Origin: Natrinema sp. HArc-T2
GTDB lineage: Archaea > Halobacteriota > Halobacteria > Halobacteriales > Natrialbaceae
Direction: 5' to 3'
DNA length: 64,000 bases
Assembly: GCF_041821085.1 (NCBI RefSeq)
Contig: NZ_JBGUAZ010000001.1
Location: 310,001-374,000, forward strand
The notes under the pieces were generated by a model. That model was given only the letters and a program-made list of their open reading frames with translations. It had not been told where the DNA came from and made no database searches. The translations under genes and the position numbers were made by a program. Below are positions 3,917-53,951 of the stretch, in pieces (within the stretch, counting starts at the first letter, position 1; every line of letters starts with the position of its first letter).

Positions 3917-5020
3917 CTACTCGGACCCAGAGTCGTCCGCGTCGGCAGCCAGGTTCTCGACGCAGGCCTCGACGGGTGCGAGCACGTCGGTCGCGATCGA
4001 GTAGGGATCGGTCTCGCCCTGTCGGACGGCTTCGGCGAGGTCGTCGATCCCGCCGCTGTCGGCGAGTTCGTCCTCGAGCAGCGCGTGGACGTCCTCGCGA
4101 AGCAGCGTTCGGATCTCCTCGGCGTAGCGCTGGCGGACCTTCTCGGCGTGCGTGCCGGAGTCGACGAGGTAGGACCGGTGGTTCCCGAGTTCGTCGATGA
4201 AGGTGTCGACGCCGGTGCCTTTCGTGGCGACCGTTTCGACGATCGGCGGGGTCCAGCTGTCAGCGTCGTCCTCGGCACTGTCCTCGTCGGCATCGCCCCA
4301 GCTCGAGCCGTCGTCACCCATCGCACCGACGCCGTGGTGCCCACCGCCGCCGGCGGGGCCGCTTTCCTCGCCGAGGTGGACCATCTCGCGCAGTTCCTGG
4401 ACGGTCCGATCCGCGCCCTCGCGGTCGGCTTTGTTAACGACGAAGATGTCGGCGATCTCGAGGATCCCTGCTTTCAGCGTCTGAATGTCGTCGCCCGAGC
4501 CCGGCGGGACGAGGACGGCGACAGTGTCGGCGGTCCGGACGATGTCGATCTCGTTTTGCCCGGCACCGACGGTCTCAATGATGATCTTGTCCTTGCCGAA
4601 GGCGTCCATCGCCTTGACGGCGTCTGCCGTCGCCGTCGAGAGTCCGCCGAGGGTGCCACGGGCGCTCATCGAGCGGACGAAGACATCCATGTCGCCGACA
4701 GTGGAGGCCATCCGGATGCGGTCACCCAGCACGGCTCCGCCGGTAAACGGCGACGAGGGATCGATCGCGATTACGCCGACCGTCTCGCCGCGCTCGCGGT
4801 AGGCCTCGGCGAGTTTGTCGACCAGCGTCGATTTGCCTGCGCCCGGCGAGCCGGTGATACCGATCACGTCGGCGTTGCCGGTGTGGGCGTACAGCTCCGA
4901 GACGAGGTCGCGATAGCCCGGCGACCGGTTCTCGATCTTCGAGATGACCCGGGCGAGTGCGCGGTGTTCGCCGGCCAGCAGCGCCTCGAGTAACGATTCG
5001 TCGGCTTCGTCCATGGTCAT
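3917..5020 (-). CDS. meaB: Methylmalonyl-CoA mutase-associated GTPase MeaB/ArgK
   Basis: 367-residue P-loop GTPase that protects and reloads the cobalamin cofactor of methylmalonyl-CoA mutase. Motifs: GSPGAGKS (57-64, Walker A), DPSSPFTGGA (88-97), ETVGAGQ (149-155) and NKAD (196-199). The start overlaps the stop of the mutase cobalamin subunit (ATGA), so the two are translationally coupled. Odd: between about residues 219 and 255 sits a Gly/His-rich then Asp/Glu-rich insertion just after NKAD. The family core does not need it; it may be a halophilic linker or a metal-binding loop. Confidence 0.92.
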   Translation of the reverse strand: MTMDEADESLLEALLAGEHRALARVISKIENRSPGYRDLVSELYAHTGNADVIGITGSPGAGKSTLVDKLAEAYRERGETVGVIAIDPSSPFTGGAVLGDRIRMASTVGDMDVFVRSMSARGTLGGLSTATADAVKAMDAFGKDKIIIETVGAGQNEIDIVRTADTVAVLVPPGSGDDIQTLKAGILEIADIFVVNKADREGADRTVQELREMVHLGEESGPAGGGGHHGVGAMGDDGSSWGDADEDSAEDDADSWTPPIVETVATKGTGVDTFIDELGNHRSYLVDSGTHAEKVRQRYAEEIRTLLREDVHALLEDELADSGGIDDLAEAVRQGETDPYSIATDVLAPVEACVENLAADADDSGSE

Positions 5021-5433
5021 CGCTGCGGCGCGTTTTCGCGGACGAACTCGATGGTTTCCTCGATCGAGGTCCCGGGGCCGAAGATCGCCGCGACGCCGTC
5101 GTCTTTGAGCCCCTCGCGGTCCTCGTCAGGGATGACGCCGCCGGCCAGCACGAGCGTGTCGTCTTTGGCACCGTACTCTTCGAGGCCGTCCATGATATTC
5201 GGGACGAGCGTGTCGTGGGCACCCGAGAGAATGGAGATGCCGAGGACGTCGACGTCCTCTTGCACGGCGGCCTGAACGATCTGGTCGGGCGATTTGTGCA
5301 GTCCGGAATAGATGACCTCGAAGCCGGCGTCACGGAACGCGCGTGCGATGACGTGTGCCCCGCGGTCGTGACCGTCGAGGCCGACTTTGGCGACGAGACA
5401 CCGAATCGACTCCGCTTCCTGTTCGCTGCTCAT
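5017..5433 (-). CDS. mcmA2: Methylmalonyl-CoA mutase, cobalamin-binding subunit
   Basis: 138 residues, matching the stand-alone B12-binding small subunit used by archaea. The cobalamin signature DGHDRG (20-25, His as lower axial ligand) is followed by LGISILSGAH and LAGGVIP. With the large subunit, encoded elsewhere, it interconverts methylmalonyl-CoA and succinyl-CoA in propionyl-CoA use. The ATG at 5433 is preceded by a purine-rich GAGGGTGGT and fits the family start; upstream in-frame codons look non-coding. The stop overlaps the meaB start. Confidence 0.9.
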   Translation of the reverse strand: MSSEQEAESIRCLVAKVGLDGHDRGAHVIARAFRDAGFEVIYSGLHKSPDQIVQAAVQEDVDVLGISILSGAHDTLVPNIMDGLEEYGAKDDTLVLAGGVIPDEDREGLKDDGVAAIFGPGTSIEETIEFVRENAPQR

Positions 5434-5653
5434 ACCACCCTCTTTCCGAGCCGACTGTTTGACTTTAACGGAAAATTGTTTCCATCGGCTGGTGCAGCGA
5501 CGGAATTCCGTGGCGGCCACGGTTCGGTGCTCGAGTGGCGGTGACGCCATGACTGTCACATCGCCCAAAACTGGACCGAACCAAAGGCTAAAGAGCGAAA
5601 CGACCGAACATTCCGGTAATGACTATCGTTCGTCTGCTGCGGAGGGATCTATC

Positions 5654-6328
5654 GTGGGTGTCGAGATAAAGGAAACCAGGGTGACCGACGCCGAGTTCGA
5701 GGAGATGAAAGGATTCGTCTTCGAGTATCTTGCAGCCAGCGTCGAGAAGGAAGACGAAGGTGGCCGGATGCGCTGGTACCCGTGGCACTCTGCCGAGTAC
5801 CGCCACAACCACATCCTCAACGTGGTCGAGCTCGCGACGGAAATCGCCGACGGCGAGGGCGCAGACGTCGACGTCACCCGCGTCGCTGCCCTCTTTCACG
5901 ACGTCGCCAAACTCGAGACTGACCAGGAACTCCACGCCGAGGCCGGCGCTCGCGTCGCCCGCGAGTACCTCGAGTCCCACGGCGAATATCCCGACTCGTT
6001 CATCCAGCAGGTGTGTCGCGCGATCGAACACCACTCCTATCAGGGCGACCTGACCGACCTCACACTCGAGACCCAGTGTCTCATCGAGGCCGATCTCCTC
6101 GATAAGGTCGGCGCGAACGGCACTGCGCTCATGCTGTTGCGGATGGGCTACGAGGCTCGGACGCACATGGACAGCGACGAAATGGTCGAACGGGTCTTAG
6201 AGCGTGGCTACGACGCCGCTTCGCGCGTCCAGAGCGAGACCGCAGAGAGCATCGCCCACCAGCGGCTCAAACGCGTCAAGTGGTTCAGCGAGTGGCTCGA
6301 AGACGAGATTGCAGCGCTGGGCGAGTAA
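5654..6328 (+). CDS. HD-domain phosphohydrolase
   Basis: 224 residues from the GTG at 5654, chosen because GGAGG (5641-5645) lies 8 nt upstream; a longer frame to 5387 runs through the divergent promoter region. The HD superfamily metal ligands are visible as HNHILNV, FHDVAK, IEHH and an Asp in EADLLDK. Such proteins hydrolyse nucleotide or other phosphoesters in the cytoplasm; the substrate is unknown. It is divergent from the mutase subunit. Confidence 0.8.
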   Translation: MGVEIKETRVTDAEFEEMKGFVFEYLAASVEKEDEGGRMRWYPWHSAEYRHNHILNVVELATEIADGEGADVDVTRVAALFHDVAKLETDQELHAEAGARVAREYLESHGEYPDSFIQQVCRAIEHHSYQGDLTDLTLETQCLIEADLLDKVGANGTALMLLRMGYEARTHMDSDEMVERVLERGYDAASRVQSETAESIAHQRLKRVKWFSEWLEDEIAALGE

Positions 6329-6500
6329 CCGACCCGTCGAGGGCAGCGCCCGCTCGAAGCGAGGTTTTTCGAAACGTAACTACCCACAGCAGTGACTGGT
6401 GTAACAGGAGATAGGAGCGCGAGCTCGTTATTCGGCATTATGTCTGAAGCTGAATTGGGCAGTTCGGTCACTGCACATGCGTATAGAACACGATAGATCG
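6329..6500. other. AT-rich intergenic stretch
   Basis: Base composition falls clearly from here to about 6840. No gene is supported in this part; a 127-codon minus-strand frame crosses into the HD gene and is rejected. Confidence 0.4.
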
Positions 6501-6502
6501 AG

Positions 6503-6694
6503 TTACGAATTGCTAACAGTTTGAATAAACGAATATACACAAATAGCGATACTAATGTAAAGCAGAGAGGCTGCCCACGTTTTGTCTCCACTCATAATAG
6601 TCACAACAGCAAGAACTGCAAACGCTAAGGCAACGATAGCCGAACGAATCGCGCGAAGATGTGCTGTTATCATCAAATAGTGCTCATCATCCAT
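6503..6694 (-). CDS. Small two-helix membrane protein, unknown
   Basis: 63 residues: a charged start (MDDEHYLM) and two hydrophobic segments (about 17-34 and 42-60) separated by SGDKTW, so a hairpin membrane protein. A strong TATA-like box (6714-6723) is 25 nt upstream of the ATG at 6694, favouring this start over the ATG at 6703 and supporting the gene. It lies in an AT-rich patch unlike its neighbours, which suggests acquired or fast-evolving DNA. I do not recognise a family. Confidence 0.45.
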   Translation of the reverse strand: MDDEHYLMITAHLRAIRSAIVALAFAVLAVVTIMSGDKTWAASLLYISIAICVYSFIQTVSNS

Positions 6695-6713
6695 GCACAA
6701 CATGTAGTATTTC

Positions 6714-6723
6714 TATAATATAT
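6714..6723 (-). promoter_or_regulatory. TATA box of the small membrane gene
   Basis: Read on the minus strand this is an uninterrupted run of alternating A and T, 25 nt before the ATG at 6694, matching the spacing of haloarchaeal leaderless promoters. Confidence 0.45.
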
Positions 6724-6868
6724 GCTTTCTGTTAATAGAGTGTAGAGTTGATTATTACTTCGTTATCTGCTTGGCCTGTACTGAACGTGCGTTTCGCGAG
6801 CGACGCTAAATAAAGAGCCCGTATTACCAACTACTGGTAATCCACCGTCAGCGCGGGCCAGGCCACGG

Positions 6869-7546
6869 TTAGACGAGGTCGAGCCCCATCGCGAGAAAGA
6901 GCACGCCGAAGCCGACGAGGACGACGGCACTGCCCGCAGCGACAATGGGCGCGAAGGCGTCGACGCGCCGACCCGCCGCGACCAGCGCCGCCGGATAGGC
7001 GACGATCCAGCACGCGATGCCGGCGAAAAAGCCGACCAGCAGTGCTGGCGATCCCGTCTGGACGACCAGCGATCCCGCGAGCGCACTCCCAACTGCCGGG
7101 GCGTGTGCGAGGACGTCGAGCGTCCCGGGCTCGAGCAAGCCGACGCCGACGGTGAGCCAGAAGCTGATCTGGTAGGGGTTGGTCAGCGAGAGCGCGAAGG
7201 TCTTGCGAAAGCCCGAGGCCGCGGCTTCGGCGGCGTCGGTAAACGACGTGGCGGCTCTGGCCTCGTCGATCGCGCCGACGGCGAAGTACAACATGAGACC
7301 GCCGCCGGCGACGTACAGCGCGGGCCGAAGCCCCGACAGGCGGTCGATGACGGCGACGACGCCGGCCAGCGTGAGCACGAAGAAGATCGCATCTGCGAGC
7401 ATGGCTCCGAGGCCAGCCCGGAAGCCAGCCGCCCAGCCGCGGACGACGCTCTCCTCGGCGATGATTGCGTTCATCGGCCCCGGAGGTGCCGCCAGCGCGA
7501 GTCCGAAGAGGATGCCAGCCAGTGCTGTAACGATGAGGGAAGTCAC
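6869..7546 (-). CDS. LysE-family transporter (amino acid exporter type)
   Basis: 225 residues with about six hydrophobic segments. The LysE/RhtB signature appears at the N-terminus as AAPPGPMNA, followed by a glycine-spaced stretch ending in ADAIFF. Family members export amino acids or related metabolites across the cytoplasmic membrane; the substrate is unknown. The GTG at 7546 is chosen because the first transmembrane segment begins immediately after it; the frame upstream reads as arginine-rich non-coding sequence. Confidence 0.82.
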   Translation of the reverse strand: MTSLIVTALAGILFGLALAAPPGPMNAIIAEESVVRGWAAGFRAGLGAMLADAIFFVLTLAGVVAVIDRLSGLRPALYVAGGGLMLYFAVGAIDEARAATSFTDAAEAAASGFRKTFALSLTNPYQISFWLTVGVGLLEPGTLDVLAHAPAVGSALAGSLVVQTGSPALLVGFFAGIACWIVAYPAALVAAGRRVDAFAPIVAAGSAVVLVGFGVLFLAMGLDLV

Positions 7547-46904: not shown

Positions 46905-48077
46905 TCAGAAGTGATAGCCATGTTGTGCAGTCAGTCGATAGGCACCGACGCCCCAGACGTAGCTCTGGCCGGGCCACCACGTCCGGGCGTTGTTAAAGCC
47001 CGCGACGAGCACGTCGTCGTCATCGCCCTCGGGGTCGCGGTGATAGCTCACGGAGCCGCTGTCGCCGTCCGTGAGATCCATCTCGCCGCCCCAGCGAATC
47101 TGTCCACGGCGACAGAACTCGTCGGTAAAGCAGGTCACCGCGTCGATACCCTGGATCTTGCCGGTCGTGTGCCCGGTCAGTGCGCCGACCTTCTCGAGTT
47201 CTGCGCCCTGGGCGACGAGGGTAGCGAGCCCGAACTTGGTGAACTGGCCGCGAACGCGAGGTCGTGACGGTGCGTCGATGCGGCTCGCGGGTTCGATCTC
47301 GCTGGTGGGTTCGATCGCCGCGACGTCTTCGACGGGGTGGTAGTGGGCGACGGTCCCCACTTCGACTGTGTCACGGTCCTCGCGCGGCAGCAACAGTGTC
47401 CCATCGGTTGCGTCGTGATCGTCGATAAACGCATGTTCGGCCGTCACGAAGAAGCGTCGCTTCCCATCAGGGTGATACAGCGCTGGGCCGAGCGTCGCCA
47501 TGCTTGAGGGGGTTTCACAGGCGACGCCGCTTGGAACCCGTTCGTTCACGAGCGCATCGACGAGCTGAGGGGATCGGTGCTCCGGACTGTTCTGGATCTC
47601 GTCGACGTCGATAATCGTCTCTGCGTTGAGATCGATACCGTCTGTGAGTTCGTCGACCATTTCGGGGATGGTGTGACCGTCGCTCGAGAGCCCGACGGAG
47701 ACGCTGGCGGTTCCGCTGTCGAAATCGTCGGGAACGACCGCGCTGCCGAGATAGCCCGTAAAGCCGAGCCGGGCCAGGTGCTCGTTTACCTCGACGGCCT
47801 GCTGGACGGCGGCGTACCACTCGGCAGGGACCGTTTGCGTCCGTTCCCGGATCGACCACGGATCGGCAGGGTCGTCCCTGACGAGCGCGGTGACGACGGG
47901 GACCTCGTCGTCGTCAGCTGCGAGAAAGTCGTCGACACCGAGCCAGGCGGCCATTCCGGCGGCGTAGCCACCGCTGACGAGCGTTCGCAGGAACGCACGT
48001 CGGTCCATGCCCTGCTCAAGCCGTTCTCGAAGCGTCGCGAGTCGGTGGGCTGAGTGCTCGGTCTCTGTCTCCGCCAT
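46905..48077 (-). CDS. Tat-exported chymotrypsin-fold serine protease-like protein
   Basis: 390 residues. After 23 charged residues comes a twin-arginine motif and hydrophobic stretch (DRRAFLRTLVSGG, about 25-46). The catalytic triad of the chymotrypsin fold is readable in the right order: His215 in VTAEHAF, Asp251 in EDVAAIEP and Ser340 in DGDSGS. Two Cys (316 and 322) may form a disulfide. It would be an extracellular endopeptidase. Haloarchaeal secreted proteases are mostly subtilisin-like, which makes this type notable. About 190 residues between the signal and the His are of unknown fold. Translation may begin at Met24 instead. Confidence 0.78.
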   Translation of the reverse strand: MAETETEHSAHRLATLRERLEQGMDRRAFLRTLVSGGYAAGMAAWLGVDDFLAADDDEVPVVTALVRDDPADPWSIRERTQTVPAEWYAAVQQAVEVNEHLARLGFTGYLGSAVVPDDFDSGTASVSVGLSSDGHTIPEMVDELTDGIDLNAETIIDVDEIQNSPEHRSPQLVDALVNERVPSGVACETPSSMATLGPALYHPDGKRRFFVTAEHAFIDDHDATDGTLLLPREDRDTVEVGTVAHYHPVEDVAAIEPTSEIEPASRIDAPSRPRVRGQFTKFGLATLVAQGAELEKVGALTGHTTGKIQGIDAVTCFTDEFCRRGQIRWGGEMDLTDGDSGSVSYHRDPEGDDDDVLVAGFNNARTWWPGQSYVWGVGAYRLTAQHGYHF

Positions 48078-48308
48078 GTCGAACTCCGGCCATCGCCGGC
48101 TCCCGTTTCGCCACTGTCTCCCGCCACGAAACGGCGTCGGTAACCGTCGAAAGGAACGTCGAAATCGACAAAAGGGGTTCTGCCTGCAGGTGCCGCAGGT
48201 GCACAGGTTCGATCGGTAGCACCCCGTTTCGAGTTGCTAGACGTGCTTACTGCTATCTGCCGTCGCGCTACGCCTGCCATAACAATACCTCGCGTGATGG
48301 AATCGGCG

Positions 48309-48345
48309 CGTGCTCCCAGTGGCACGACGCCGGTTCGATTCCGGT
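48309..48345 (+). other. Tandem hairpins with tRNA T-arm-like sequence
   Basis: CGTGC (48309-48313) pairs with GCACG (48322-48326), and GCCGG with CCGGT around the loop TTCGATT (48329-48345). The second hairpin is a near-perfect tRNA T-arm. I cannot find a matching acceptor strand or D-arm upstream, so this is not an intact tRNA. It could be a fragment, a leader structure for the gene at 48355, or chance. Confidence 0.4.
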
Positions 48346-48354
48346 GGGGAGGCT

Positions 48355-48705
48355 ATGAGCTCCGAGGGAGCGGTTCCGTGGCGCCTCCTGCCGGGAGACA
48401 TCTCGTCCGGTGGTCTCGAGCGCCTGCTCTGGGTGGTCGTCGCGGTTGCCCTGATCGCAGACGTCGTGACGACGTTCGTCGGTCTCCAGCTCGGACTTTC
48501 CGAGTCGAACCCGGCAGCACGTGGGGCGATCGAGGGGCACGGAGTGGCCGGTATGCTCGCCCTGAAGGCGTTTGCAATCTCCGTCGGTCTCGTCTGTCGG
48601 CTCCTCCTCGAGCGCCCGTATCGCCCGATCGTTCCGGTCGGACTCGCGGTCCCGTGGCTGGTGGCTGCGACCCTGAACACCTACATGATCTCGGTCGTCC
48701 TCTAA
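48355..48705 (+). CDS. DUF5658-like membrane protein
   Basis: 116 residues with three hydrophobic segments. ERLLWVVVAVALIADVVTT, then GLQLGLSESNPAARG and LALKAFAISV, match the layout of DUF5658 (helix with Asp-x-x-x-Thr, then G-x-E-x-NP, then a Lys in the next helix). The ATG at 48355 is preceded by GGGGAGG (48346-48352), a strong ribosome binding site that decides the start. Confidence 0.72.
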   Translation: MSSEGAVPWRLLPGDISSGGLERLLWVVVAVALIADVVTTFVGLQLGLSESNPAARGAIEGHGVAGMLALKAFAISVGLVCRLLLERPYRPIVPVGLAVPWLVAATLNTYMISVVL

Positions 48706-48717
48706 TTCTGAACTCGA

Positions 48718-48909
48718 TCACGAGTTCCGCTCGAGGGTCCGTCGCCAGTCCCGAACCTCGGCGAGCACCGCTTCCCACTGCTCTCCCCGGCCAGGGATTT
48801 CGTCGCCAGCCAGGCGCTCGCGTTCGGTCTCGAGTCGCTCGCCGCGTTCTCCGCCCTCAGTCCAGAGACTCGCGTCGAGTCCGAACGGGTGTCGGTGGCG
48901 GTTCGACAT
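48718..48909 (-). CDS. Small hydrophilic protein, unknown
   Basis: 63 residues, charged and helical (RHRHPFGLDASLWTEGGERG, then a Glu/Arg-rich helix). No domain recognised. It is kept because its composition is haloarchaeal and it fills the gap between two well-supported genes; the ATG at 48909 is preferred over 48957. Confidence 0.45.
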   Translation of the reverse strand: MSNRHRHPFGLDASLWTEGGERGERLETERERLAGDEIPGRGEQWEAVLAEVRDWRRTLERNS

Positions 48910-49018
48910 CGTCACGACGAACTGTGTCGTACGCGGGACTGCCCATGTCGACGCCACGATCCGTCACGATCGATCGTTTCGCACAACCCCTATTCCGCTC
49001 GAGTCGCTAGTGACGACA

Positions 49019-49219
49019 ATGGCAACGCAACCGACTCACGACGACTCGCTGCCCCCACCTGAAGCACACAAGACGGTCCTCTTCTGTCCGGAGTGTGGTC
49101 ACCGGAGTCCGATCACTGGCGACTGGGATGTCACGACGACCAGCACCGAGCGGTTGCTGGTCTGTACTGGCTGTGGGGCTGTCGTCGACCGGCGATCAGA
49201 GTCACTCGAGACCGCGTAA
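49019..49219 (+). CDS. Small zinc-ribbon protein
   Basis: 66 residues. Two Cys pairs (CPECGH about residue 23 and CTGCGAVVDRR about 50) are separated by 24 residues, forming one zinc ribbon. Such small haloarchaeal ribbons are common, and roles in nucleic acid or protein binding are usually proposed without proof. The ATG at 49019 is preferred over the GTG at 49010. Confidence 0.7.
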   Translation: MATQPTHDDSLPPPEAHKTVLFCPECGHRSPITGDWDVTTTSTERLLVCTGCGAVVDRRSESLETA

Positions 49220-49320
49220 AGAGCGCCGGCACACCCAAGCCGTAAGCCGAATCATGTACAGCGTGGCCGCTCCTGGCCCGCATAGTGTTCGTCCCTGTCG
49301 ATCGACCAGTCTCGCGAGCA

Positions 49321-49347
49321 CCCACACCCCTCGTTCAGAGTGAAACG
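49321..49347 (-). repeat. Origin recognition box (ORB), distal copy
   Basis: On the minus strand the segment contains TTTCACTCTGAACGAGGGGT and a short G-rich end. It matches the boxes upstream of orc1 but lies beyond the orc1 stop codon, in the same orientation as the copy at 50910. Confidence 0.75.
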
Positions 49348-49395
49348 CGTTTCGAGCGAGCGGGGGGTCGCAGCTCACGTCGGCGCCTCGATAGT

Positions 49396-50682
49396 TTACG
49401 CAAAGGAATCGAGGTCGAGATCCCGGTTCGTCGCCGACGGGCTGGTTTCGTGAAGTTGGTCGTACGTCGGGAGTTCCTCGAGCGAGGAATCGCGGCGGAC
49501 GGCCTTGACGATGTGTTTCGGATCGGTGACGAGCCGATGTAAGAGATAACTGCCCTGTGATCGCCCGCCGCCGGTCTTTTCGGACTCGATGACGCCGAGA
49601 AACGCCTGTTCTTTGAGCTGGCGGTAGAGTCCGTTCTCGGTGATCGGATCGTTAGCAACGAGTTCGCAGATCCCGACGTAGCGTTCGTAGATCTCCCGCG
49701 TCTTGTACGTCTCTCGCCCGCCGGTAATGATGCGGCTCGCGAGCGCGTAGAGGGCGAGTTTCGCGTGGACGGTCGCCCCGCTGGTAAGTTCCTCGATGCG
49801 GTTGATCTCGGCGACCTCCTGTGCTTGCTGGATGTGGGATTCCGAGACGGTCTCGCTGCCGGTCCGCCGTGCGAGTTCGCCGGCCTCTTTGAGGATCTCG
49901 ATCGCCTTCCGGGCGTCTCCGTGTTTCTTGGCTGCGAGCGCTGCACAGAGTTCGATCGTCCCACCCTCGAGGACATCGGGCTGGAACGCGTCCTCGCGGT
50001 TGCGCATGATCTCGCGGAGTTGGGAGGCGTCGTAGGGATGGAAGAACAGTTCTCGATGGCCGAAGCTACTGTCGATCCGTTCGTCGAGGGTTTCCCGATA
50101 CTGGACTTTGTTACTGATTCCGATGACGCCGATGTAGGTGTCTGTCTTCTGTGCCTCCCGCGCACGCGAAAGCTGCATGAGAATGTTGCTGTTGTCCAGC
50201 TTGTCGATCTCGTCCAAAATAACGATGACCGCGTCGAAGCAATCCTCGAGAATGCCCCAGATGTGCTGGTAATACTCCATCGTCCCGACGCCCCGTAGTG
50301 GGATATTCTGTTGATAGCCGGTCTGCTCTTTCAAACTGAGCGCCAACTGTCGTGTCGCGCGGGTTTCAGTGTTCGCTTCCGAACAGTCGACGTAGAGAAC
50401 GGCACAGTCGATCTCGTTGCTTCGGGCGGCGTCCTGGGCTCGAGTCGCGACGTGTCGGGAGATGAGACTCTTACCGGTCCCGGTCTTTCCGTAGATCATC
50501 ACGTTGTTCGGTGGATCACCGCGCGTGATCGCGCCGACCTCAGCCGCGACGGATTGGATCTCGTCGTCACGTCCGACGATGCGATCTTCGTCCGGAACGT
50601 GACCGACGTGGAGGAGTTCTTTCCGATTAAAGATAGGATCGTGAGATCGGAAAAGTGGGTCCCCACTGGTCTGCTCAGCCAT
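49396..50682 (-). CDS. orc1: Orc1/Cdc6 replication initiator
   Basis: 428 residues. This AAA+ ATPase binds origin recognition boxes and recruits the MCM helicase. Walker A GKTGTGKS (65-72), Walker B VIVILDEID, sensor 1 GVIGISN, an arginine finger region LDERIDSSF and sensor 2 GDARKAIE are followed by a C-terminal winged-helix domain (about 310-420). A TATA-like box (50705-50713) is 27 nt before the ATG. Inverted ORB repeats and an AT-rich region lie immediately upstream, so this initiator probably serves its own adjacent origin. Confidence 0.95.
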   Translation of the reverse strand: MAEQTSGDPLFRSHDPIFNRKELLHVGHVPDEDRIVGRDDEIQSVAAEVGAITRGDPPNNVMIYGKTGTGKSLISRHVATRAQDAARSNEIDCAVLYVDCSEANTETRATRQLALSLKEQTGYQQNIPLRGVGTMEYYQHIWGILEDCFDAVIVILDEIDKLDNSNILMQLSRAREAQKTDTYIGVIGISNKVQYRETLDERIDSSFGHRELFFHPYDASQLREIMRNREDAFQPDVLEGGTIELCAALAAKKHGDARKAIEILKEAGELARRTGSETVSESHIQQAQEVAEINRIEELTSGATVHAKLALYALASRIITGGRETYKTREIYERYVGICELVANDPITENGLYRQLKEQAFLGVIESEKTGGGRSQGSYLLHRLVTDPKHIVKAVRRDSSLEELPTYDQLHETSPSATNRDLDLDSFA

Positions 50683-50704
50683 AGTTTCGTTCTGGAAGAC
50701 GGTA

Positions 50705-50713
50705 TGTATAAAT
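50705..50713 (-). promoter_or_regulatory. TATA box of orc1
   Basis: On the minus strand ATTTATAC is centred 27 nt upstream of the orc1 ATG at 50682. Confidence 0.5.
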
Positions 50714-50909
50714 CTATGGAAGGTAGTTCAGACTGATAAATGCAGGGTAGCGTTTCTGAAGCCGACGTTTATCGACTTCCTGAGTGATCAACTCCTCGAC
50801 CGAATGCAGACTGAACACTGGCACTCCCCGACACGGCACTCACGTACGTTCCCGCGGAACTCTCGGTCGACCATCCCGCTGGAGTCACTACAGATCGTCT
50901 CGTTCCGAC

Positions 50910-50936
50910 CCACCCACCCCTCGTTCAGACTGAAAC
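50910..50936 (-). repeat. Origin recognition box (ORB)
   Basis: On the minus strand: TTTCAGTCTGAACGAGGGGT followed by a GGGTGG end. It differs from the distal copy at one base within the core. Confidence 0.8.
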
Positions 50937-51308
50937 TGACGTATCCGTAGTAAGTTCGCCTCGACGATTAGAACTCGCAATGGGTCTGCCTACCGGAACT
51001 CGAGGCCGAGTGACGACGAATACGGTCGCTAACTGCCGAATGGGGACAGTAGCTATGCGTTGAGGTCGACCCCTGTGCCGTGACTGGCCCCTGTCTCACG
51101 AGAAGGGGCCACAATACAATGTGTTAACTTCTCATAGCTATAGTTTCGAGTATACCACTATCTATATACTAGTATTGAATGTTATGTTATAGGCAATAAT
51201 TTAGTAATCCCTAGCGGATCTCGAACCGATAACGAATATCTCCGATAAAGAGGATAATTCGCCCGAATACAGCCGAGCTGGTTACAGAGCCAATCCGCAT
51301 TCACTACC

Positions 51309-51338
51309 GTTTTCACTCTGAACAGGGGGTGGGGGTCC
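51309..51338 (+). repeat. Origin recognition box (ORB) with G-string
   Basis: TTTTCACTCTGAACAGGGGG followed by TGGGGGTCC. This copy has the longest G-rich extension. Confidence 0.8.
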
Positions 51339-51424
51339 TCTCAGCTTCCGTGTCCGACCGACCCGGCATCGATCGAATTGACGCCTAACTCAGCGTGACC
51401 GTCGACTGTCACAACAGGAATTGT

Positions 51425-51449
51425 CGTTCACTCTGAATGAGGGGTGTGA
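51425..51449 (+). repeat. Origin recognition box (ORB)
   Basis: GTTCACTCTGAATGAGGGGT, the same core in plus orientation, with one substitution in the AAC element. Confidence 0.78.
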
Positions 51450-51514
51450 CCAACCGACATGTCGGAGCTGGCGTGGTACATGCCGAACGCGACCGCTATC
51501 ACCGGCTCGATTCG

Positions 51515-51540
51515 CCTTTCACTCTGAGAGAGGGGGGTCC
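51515..51540 (+). repeat. Origin recognition box (ORB)
   Basis: TTTCACTCTGAGAGAGGGGG with GTCC following; plus orientation and the most degenerate centre of the set. Confidence 0.75.
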
Positions 51541-51754
51541 GTCACCGAGCACACTCGTCCTCACTGTCTGCTAACCGAATCACTCTTACAGCAGTAGCTA
51601 TCCGAATAGCCGCTAAAAGCCGACTTAGTCGTCCCAAATAGTTCGGTAACTGAAGTGATCGACCGCACGTGTCGGCGATGTCGTTCTCCTAATATTTAAT
51701 TCTCTTTCAATTCCTTATATTGTCTTTTATGCACTATGAGGTGCATTCGTCACG

Positions 51755-51762
51755 TTTATTTT
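51755..51762 (+). promoter_or_regulatory. TATA box of glutamate dehydrogenase
   Basis: TTTATTTT is centred 27-28 nt before the ATG at 51786 and decides between this start and the in-frame ATG at 51720. Confidence 0.55.
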
Positions 51763-51785
51763 GGTTACCTCGGAAGCTACTGTCA

Positions 51786-53042
51786 ATGTCAGACGAAGCC
51801 AACCCGTTCGAAAGTCTGCAAGCGCAGATCGACGAGGCTGCAGAGTACCTCGACATCGGTGATGACGTGATCGAGCGACTCAAACACCCCGAGCGCGTTC
51901 TCGAGACGAACCTGACGATCGAACTCGACAACGGCGATCTCGAGCGCTTCAAGGCGTTCCGTTCGCAGTTCAACGGCGACCGTGGTCCCTACAAGGGCGG
52001 CATCCGCTATCACCCGAACGTTTCCCGTGACGAGGTCAAGGCGCTGTCCGGCTGGATGACCTACAAGACGTCGATCGTCGACATCCCACTCGGCGGCGGC
52101 AAGGGTGGCATCATCATCGATCCTGCCGAGTACTCCGAGGCGGAACTCGAGCGACTCACTCGTGCGTTTGCGAAGGAACTGACGCCGATGATCGGCGAGG
52201 ACCGCGACGTCCCCGCGCCTGACGTGAACACGGGCCAGCGGGAGATGAACTGGATCAAAGACACCTACGAGACCATCGAGAACACGACCGAGCCCGGCGT
52301 CATCACGGGGAAGGCGCTCGATTCGGGCGGCAGCGAGGGTCGCGTCGAAGCAACCGGTCGCTCGACGGTCATCGCTGCACGCGAGGCCTTCGACTACCTC
52401 GACAAGGACCTCGAGGGTGCGACCGTCGCCGTGCAGGGCTACGGGAACGCGGGTTGGATCGCAGCCAAGCTGATCGACGAGATGGGCGCGACCGTCGTCG
52501 CCGCCAGTGACTCGAGCGGTGGCATCTACAACCCCGACGGCTTCGACCCCGTCGCGGCGAAAGACCACAAAAACGAGACCGGCAGCGTCGTCGGCTTCGC
52601 GGAGAGCGAAGAGGAGATCACCAACGAGGACGTGCTCACGCTCGACGTCGACCTGCTGATTCCCGCTGCACTCGAGAACGCGATCGACGCCGACCTCGCC
52701 GAAGACGTCAAAGCCGACGTCATCTCGGAGGCCGCAAACGGGCCGCTGACGCCAGCCGCCGACGAGGTCCTCGAGGACAAGGACGTCTTCGTCATCCCGG
52801 ACATCCTCGCGAACGCGGGCGGTGTCACCGTCTCGTACTTCGAGTGGGTCCAGAACCGCCAGCGCTTTGCCTGGTCCGAAGAGCGCGTCAACGAGGAACT
52901 CGAGGGAGTTATCGTCGACGCCTTCGACGCACTGGTCGAGACCTACGAGGAACACGACCTCGACAACCCACGGACCGCTACGTACGTCGTCGCGATCCAG
53001 CGCGTCGCCGACGCCTTCGAGGAAGCCGGCACCTGGCCCTGA
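51786..53042 (+). CDS. gdhA: Glutamate dehydrogenase
   Basis: 418 residues, the usual hexameric GDH length. It interconverts glutamate with 2-oxoglutarate and ammonia. Substrate-binding [11 protein letters not shown], the catalytic lysine region PLGGGKGGI, and the Rossmann motif [11 protein letters not shown] are visible; the adenine-ribose pocket acid follows in AASDSSGG. Coenzyme preference is not clear from this. The ATG at 51786 is chosen because a TATA box lies 27 nt upstream and the family N-terminus begins there. Confidence 0.94.
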
Positions 53043-53159
53043 ATCCAGACTCGCTGGTCGCTGCCTGACTCGAACAGTGTACCCACCGATCTTTTTCGGC
53101 GTCGTAGACAGTTTCCGTTCCAACAAACACTTAGTACCTGACGGGACAGTTGTAGAGAG

Positions 53160-53951
53160 ATGAACCGACGAACCGTTCTTGCAGGGCTCGGCGCTGTCGG
53201 CCTCGCGGGGCTGTCAGGCTGTCTGGGACTGGTTGGATTAGACGAACATAAGTCGTCACCCGCGGGCGTCGAGGCCGCTGTTCGCGAGGAGACGGGCTAC
53301 GAACAGACCGGCATTGAACCGCTTTCCGTCGAGCGGGAGGTCGGCCCAACCAACGAGATTGTCACCGTCACCAATTACATGACCACTCACGAGAAGGCAG
53401 TGGACATGGGGCAACTCGGCAGGCAACGCGGTGCCGTCTTCAACGTCCTGACGACCCCGCAGGTCTCGATTCTCGGTCGTGAACTCAATCCCATCGAGGA
53501 GATGTCGACACAGGAACTCGTCGACCTCGTCAGGCAGAACTACGATGGGATCGCGAATATCGAGCACAAAGACGACACCGATGTCACGATCCTCGACCAG
53601 TCGACGACCCAGTCGCGGTTTACCGCTGACGCGGAGTTCGACGGACACGACCTCCCCGTCAACGTTCACATCACCGAAGCCGTCGAGGCTGACACGGACC
53701 TGCTCGTGACCATCGGCGTCTATCCCGAGTACGTCCAGCGACTCGAGGAACCGAACGTCACATCCCTCACGGAGGCGGTGACGACCGCTGTCGACGAGGA
53801 CGCCTCGAGCGACGGCTCCAATTCCACCACGAGCAATAACGAGAGCAGCACCGATTCGACGAGCATCGACAAAATCGACAACGAGACGAGTCTTGACGGA
53901 ATCGACACCGAGACGCTCACAACGAAAAGCGTCGACGACCTCCTCGGCTAA
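53160..53951 (+). CDS. Tat lipoprotein, DUF6517-like
   Basis: 263 residues. The twin-arginine signal (MNRRTVLAGLGAVG) and lipobox LSGC place it lipid-anchored outside. The mature domain (AAVREETGYEQTGIEPLSVER, then ISILGRELNPIE-like VSILGRELNPIE and QNYDGIANI) resembles a haloarchaeal lipoprotein family I associate with DUF6517, not certain. The C-terminal 50 residues are Ser/Thr/Asn/Asp-rich, like an O-glycosylated spacer. Function unknown. Confidence 0.72.
   Translation: MNRRTVLAGLGAVGLAGLSGCLGLVGLDEHKSSPAGVEAAVREETGYEQTGIEPLSVEREVGPTNEIVTVTNYMTTHEKAVDMGQLGRQRGAVFNVLTTPQVSILGRELNPIEEMSTQELVDLVRQNYDGIANIEHKDDTDVTILDQSTTQSRFTADAEFDGHDLPVNVHITEAVEADTDLLVTIGVYPEYVQRLEEPNVTSLTEAVTTAVDEDASSDGSNSTTSNNESSTDSTSIDKIDNETSLDGIDTETLTTKSVDDLLG

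Follow-up and report, generated by a model that had tools for sequence, protein, structure and literature searches.

A candidate secondary replication origin beside an orc1/cdc6 gene, conserved in Natrialbaceae

Background

The closest described systems are the haloarchaeal origins that lie next to an orc/cdc6 gene, as covered by the Wu 2012 survey (PMC3528665), and in particular oriC2-cdc6E of H. hispanica (PMC3936714). As the excerpts of both papers describe them, these origins have ORBs with G-strings and an adjacent initiator gene, an AT-rich core amid inverted ORBs, boxes that are specific to the Orc family, and ORBs beyond the gene. The Natrinema locus analyzed here shares all of these traits. 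Unlike the published examples, it has its own box type (TTCASTCTGAAC) and its own Orc family, and it carries box cores in the orc promoter, which are not described for haloarchaeal orc-adjacent origins in the same excerpts. The kind of origin is already known, and this Orc/origin family may already be in the list of the 2012 survey, which by its excerpts covers Haloterrigena turkmenica and Natrialba magadii.

Functional data are available for several of these relatives. In H. hispanica, excerpts of PMC3936714 report that ORB G-strings are essential at oriC1, that every origin depends on its own adjacent cdc6, and that the ORBs past cdc6E restrain oriC2, probably via titration. The published view, in excerpts of PMC3528665, is that Orc family and ORB type pair up. 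Some predicted origins of like build are inactive in the wild type, both in H. hispanica and in Haloferax mediterranei (PMC3528665 and PMC4595724, excerpts). Under the same genus name as the present organism, the ARS regions of Natrinema sp. J7 are likewise orc-adjacent and have ORBs; they replicate plasmids, and in some of them ORBs flank the gene on either side (PMC5350488).

Layout of the locus

The window, meaning the whole 64-kb stretch of DNA that was analyzed, corresponds to positions 310001-374000 of contig C1 (852 kb) in a 3.73-Mb genome of 32 contigs. A preliminary description had proposed a haloarchaeal orc-linked origin here, with five boxes around an AT-rich core. An origin of this layout with inverted ORBs is still the best reading, as the layout, the linkage of boxes to initiator and the unstable core are each conserved or exceptional. 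More fully, we interpret the locus as an orc1/cdc6-linked chromosomal origin of the haloarchaeal type, secondary (not oriC1), conserved in Natrialbaceae and equipped with its own Orc1; it is a candidate whose firing is predicted, and we put the probability of this reading at roughly 0.88. The features are collected in Table 1.

Table 1. Features of the candidate origin and its flanking genes (window coordinates)
Feature	Position	Strand	Details
ORB past orc1 stop codon, TTTCACTCTGAACGAGGGGTG, candidate titration site	49325..49345	-	downstream box in 35/35 Natrialbaceae loci
orc1/cdc6 initiator gene, 428 aa	49396..50682	-	TIGR02928 E 6.5e-115; PF22703 and PF09079 above cut-off
Candidate origin intergenic region, orc1 to gdh, 1103 bp	50683..51785		sequence; layout kept in 30/30 orthologous regions
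TATA-like element of orc1, TTTATA, -30 to -25	50707..50712	-	putative promoter use
Box core without G-string, TATCAGTCTGAAC	50726..50738	-	directly upstream of orc promoter; TATCAGTCTG exact in 35/35 loci
Second box core, no full G-string, TTCAGTCTGCA	50805..50815	-	about -132; 29/35 loci
ORB, left arm, TTTCAGTCTGAACGAGGGGTG	50915..50935	-	95% invariant, 5 closest sequences
Candidate DNA unwinding element	51113..51212		least stable 100 bp of 852-kb contig, nearest-neighbour energy
ORB, right arm 1, TTTCACTCTGAACAGGGGGTG	51311..51331	+	95% invariant, 5 closest sequences
ORB, right arm 2, TTCACTCTGAATGAGGGGTG	51427..51446	+	70% invariant, 5 closest sequences
ORB, right arm 3, TTTCACTCTGAGAGAGGGGGG, core divergent past CTGA	51517..51537	+	90% invariant, 5 closest sequences
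Glutamate dehydrogenase gene (gdh) flanking origin	51786..53042	+	PF00208 E 7.6e-80

The Orc1/Cdc6 gene that had been noticed beside the boxes is intact and directly adjacent to the candidate origin. Its product has an AAA+ ATPase domain with Walker A (GKTGTGKS) and Walker B (LDEID) motifs, a Cdc6 lid and a C-terminal winged helix. The closest named relatives by Orc, at 98% identity, are Natrinema hispanicum, N. limicola and Haloterrigena sp. H1. The nearest solved structures are those of A. pernix Orc1 (2v1u) and S. solfataricus Orc1-1 (2qby), with an alignment that spans most of the length. Both were reportedly solved with origin DNA, with the dyad occupied by the winged helix and the G-string by the ISM (PMC9738581, excerpt).

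The box type is TTTCA[C/G]TCTGAAC-GAGGGGTG, with five copies around orc1/cdc6. All five lie where the preliminary description had placed them: a minus-strand left box in the half of the intergenic region nearest to orc1, three plus-strand boxes to the right, and a further minus-strand box past orc1. Two points differ from that description: the third right-hand box (CTGAGAGAGGGGG) departs from the CTGAAC core, and its inventory missed the two minus-strand cores without a G-string in the intergenic region. With at most one mismatch allowed, TTCASTCTGAANNNNGGGG matches five times in the window, against 0.01 expected, and none of 100 shuffles reached five; in the 3.73-Mb genome it matches at the same five sites only, and the reversed-pattern control matches nowhere. 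At least two G-string ORBs in inverted orientation flank the AT-rich element.

That element, also claimed beforehand, sits in the gap that separates the left box from the first right box and includes the least stable 50 bp of contig C1 (51158-51207); at the 150-bp scale the core ranks as the third spot on the contig, both by nearest-neighbour duplex energy. Several of the contig's least stable spots are found in a stretch of low GC content (0.57-0.61) at window positions of about 5001-7000 and C1 positions of about 290000-318000, which is possibly acquired DNA. An Rfam scan of 48000-53500 found no structured RNA.

Conservation among orthologous loci

Orthologous loci were collected from Natrialbaceae-type genera (35 loci, about 86-98% Orc identity) and from Halegenticoccus, Halobellus and Halogeometricum (three loci, 75-76%). 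All 38 (Orc identity at least 75%) have at least three G-ended boxes. The intergenic region was compared in 30 cases, the window and one duplicate pair included, and L073 and L076-L080 (gdh absent from the locus or too far away) as well as L081, L082 and L103 left aside. In every one of the 30, the longest box-free gap is bounded by a minus and then a plus box, facing inwards, and the AT maximum falls within the largest box gap in 23 and outside it in 7. The identical loci L057 and L058 are both counted in the 38-locus and 30-region tallies, as they are in the box-code and first 10-mer tallies given below.

Among the five closest sequences, 87.5% of the bases in boxes are invariant versus 48.5% of the rest (permutation p 0.0017), which indicates that the boxes are under constraint. 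The box past the orc stop codon recurs in all 35 Natrialbaceae loci; 33 have it no more than 400 bp from the stop, and in L061 and L074 the distance is greater.

Some of these genomes show peculiarities of their own. The chromosome (L057) and plasmid (L058) records of Natronorubrum bangense share an identical 13-kb stretch carrying the origin, which is either a large duplication or an assembly fault. Genome G117 of the family survey, with two copies of the orthologue and 13% contamination, probably corresponds to this species' genome. Loci of Natronorubrum, Natrialba and Natronococcus (L057, L061, L065, L071, L075) have a second gdh beyond orc, 47-51% identical, so that the origin there lies between two gdh genes; none was seen in the Natrinema loci examined.

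Box types and the other origins of the genome

The pairing of boxes and initiators can be read from the two bases that follow the CTCTG core, tallied with a more relaxed box definition than that used for the count of at least three boxes. In boxes next to the orthologues this place reads AA in 171 of 189 cases; in those next to Orc relatives of 46-54% identity it reads GA in 81 of 92, typically as CTCTGGAC or CTCTTGAC, and two of the 18 loci of these relatives are without a box. ORB type tracks Orc family, and the linkage of presence and absence agrees. Within the genome, other orc loci have repeated G-ended boxes of their own (L002, CTCACTCGG; L005, CACATCGATAG; L007, CGGAAGCAGT), and their differences fit one box type per initiator; the search for such repeats found none at 8 of 12 orc loci, the oriC1 locus on contig C2 among them.

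The universal oriC1 (orc1/cdc6A) resembles this locus in general architecture but differs in its boxes, its orc and its location on contig C2. There, boxes of the forms TCGAGTGGAAAC-AGAGGGG (and similar) and TCSAGTGGAAAC..GAGGGG lie beside another orc frame, of 614 codons. They are of the oriC1 type, whose consensus is TCCASTGGAA; cores of this type match at the C2 orc and have zero matches at the present locus. An oriC1-family Orc would be at least 80% similar in all haloarchaea, and the orthologue of the present Orc was found at E<=1e-180 in 22 of 243 genomes sampled across the order, all of the window's own family. Universal oriC1 was rejected as an identity for the locus on both grounds.

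In the oriC1-type Orc itself (C2:431150-432691, L011/L013), an acidic insert of about 150 aa separates the two Walker motifs, A and B. An intein was considered and rejected; the insert is an acidic linker.

The primers of the Natrinema J7 ARS clones have no match at the orc1/gdh locus or its relatives, and one of them was searched across the 29 genus genomes. A forward primer of ARS-4 matches with one mismatch beside another orc (L006, contig C4:8839-9957). ARS-4 of strain J7 thus resembles the L006 locus, not the orc1/gdh locus, and another origin of this genome probably has a relative that replicates experimentally.

Presence and loss

The orc gene is present in 19 of the 29 genus genomes, and all 19 have the boxes. 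Natrinema species with the locus include N. pallidum and N. altunense. By hand count, 87 of the 95 pattern matches in the orc-bearing genomes are at the locus, whereas the 10 orc-less genomes have four matches, one of them a relic, and no array; reversed-pattern controls gave four matches in total across the 29. Every genome has gdh. In the 10 orc-less genomes other genes are found upstream of it, and in eight the neighbours further out (DUF5658 and others) are recognizably the same. Two of the orc-less genomes, which are sisters, have remnants: G043 (L182) retains 192 bp of the C-terminal part of orc, at 78% DNA identity, next to a degenerate box, and G009 (L176) has kept two isolated boxes. 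Replacement of one origin by another at this site was considered for G043 and rejected, the match being the C-terminal orc relic.

An aligned gdh tree, rooted with origin-bearing genera, requires at least three changes; it is a tree of a single gene with several weak forks. These comparisons indicate that the origin has been lost at least three times within the genus. In the family, the orthologue was found in 59 of 125 genomes and 12 of 29 genera, the other 66 genomes being without it at the cut-off used. Because orc is absent from these and from 10 of the 29 genus genomes, the origin is dispensable, and the survey, relics and tree together point to an old secondary origin of Natrialbaceae that has been lost repeatedly.

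Strand composition and gene direction

The preliminary description had suggested GC skew as a check, with a turning point expected here, although such a turn does not define origins of this kind. GC skew along C1 has no minimum at the locus, and strand-corrected skew at fourfold sites leans the wrong way. The oriC1 of the same genome has no GC-skew turn either, so the criterion is powerless in this genome.

AT skew, in contrast, switches here. The fraction of contig positions that switch as strongly is 0 at 50 kb (377 positions) and 0.003 at 100 kb (327 positions), but it rises to 0.16 at 20 kb (407 positions) and 0.112 at 150 kb (277 positions). Within 50 kb, 60% of the genes on the left point leftward and 81% of those on the right point rightward, and the AT-skew switch is ascribed to this orientation. 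Since oriC1 shows no AT-skew switch, little weight is given to the one seen here; the divergence of AT skew and gene direction from the locus is weak support for an origin.

Box cores in the orc1 promoter

The 10-mer TATCAGTCTG stands at -56 or -55 from the orc ATG in all 35 orthologous loci, a count that is the same in the first locus set and in the set with the window added and the duplicate L058 dropped; in the latter set the box core is placed at -54 in 35 of 35. The TATA-like hexamer begins at -31 to -29 in 35 of 35, and conserved columns run from TATCAGTCTG into it. A few of the 29 cores at about -132 retain a G-run. In a composition shuffle, the core with one mismatch is expected 0.005 times per 160-bp stretch. 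In the sister Orc family (46-54% identical), an imperfect box of that family's own type is found in 16 of 18 loci at a nearly constant distance, about 101-116 bp ahead of the match start.

Origin function at H. hispanica oriC1 requires the G-strings (PMC3936714, excerpts), so the promoter cores are more likely regulatory. Their fixed positions upstream of TATA suggest, at about even odds, that Orc1 of this family controls its gene by way of ORB cores without a G-string, and the box at a nearly constant distance in the sister family suggests that such an autoregulatory circuit may be general. The proposed cores would be the haloarchaeal counterpart of the DnaA boxes in the dnaA promoter. Searches of open-licence literature turned up no title or abstract that describes autoregulation by haloarchaeal initiators.

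Alternative explanations

Literature searches turned up neither marker-frequency nor binding data for this locus, and the wording of the preliminary description, "active or potentially active", is supported and marks the limit of what sequence allows. The locus could be an intact but dormant origin, silent in the wild type and firing only when the main origins are absent. Dormant origins of the same build are known in Haloferax mediterranei (excerpts of PMC4595724), and the three or more losses within the genus would fit. However, the dormant origin of H. mediterranei is rare and of variable context according to the same excerpts, whereas the origin here occurs in 59 of 125 family genomes, its gene context is conserved like that of the active H. 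mediterranei origins, and its boxes are constrained. Dormancy is the less likely reading but a serious alternative.

Far less probable is that the Orc acts chiefly in regulation, as a DNA-binding protein, or in titration, with the boxes as its regulatory sites and no origin here. In Sulfolobus islandicus, an Orc1 paralogue has a regulatory role and binds the promoter of its own gene (PMC9738581, in excerpt), and the cores at fixed places in the orc promoter could be taken in this sense. The full boxes point inwards at the contig's least stable 100 bp, however, and the genome has no further boxes elsewhere for such a protein to regulate. Recent integration of a mobile or plasmid origin is the least credible reading: later-acquired origins are common among haloarchaea (excerpts of PMC3528665) and the identical 13-kb stretch of Natronorubrum bangense is also on a plasmid record, but the origin occupies the same site with the same gene neighbours in several genera, and its absence within the genus is derived, with relics left behind.

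A model for initiation and its implications

In a conserved secondary origin with its own initiator, Orc1-ATP would bind the ORBs with its winged helix on the TTCASTCTGAA dyad and its AAA+/ISM region on the G-string. The two inward-facing ORB arms would orient Orc1 towards the core, which would melt; MCM would then be loaded and forks would depart both ways. The downstream ORB and the promoter half-boxes would limit free Orc1 or its synthesis. By analogy with H. hispanica oriC2, the single downstream ORB may restrain the origin, more weakly; oriC2 has 11 such ORBs versus one here (PMC3936714, excerpts).

The locus represents a further origin family, well delimited and clear in its box code, and the promoter half-boxes make autoregulation of a haloarchaeal initiator directly testable. 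The genus also provides a natural experiment, in which the origin persists in 19 of 29 genomes and is gone from the other 10, after at least three losses and with relics in two. This contrast among sister species opens the purpose of a secondary archaeal origin to comparison.
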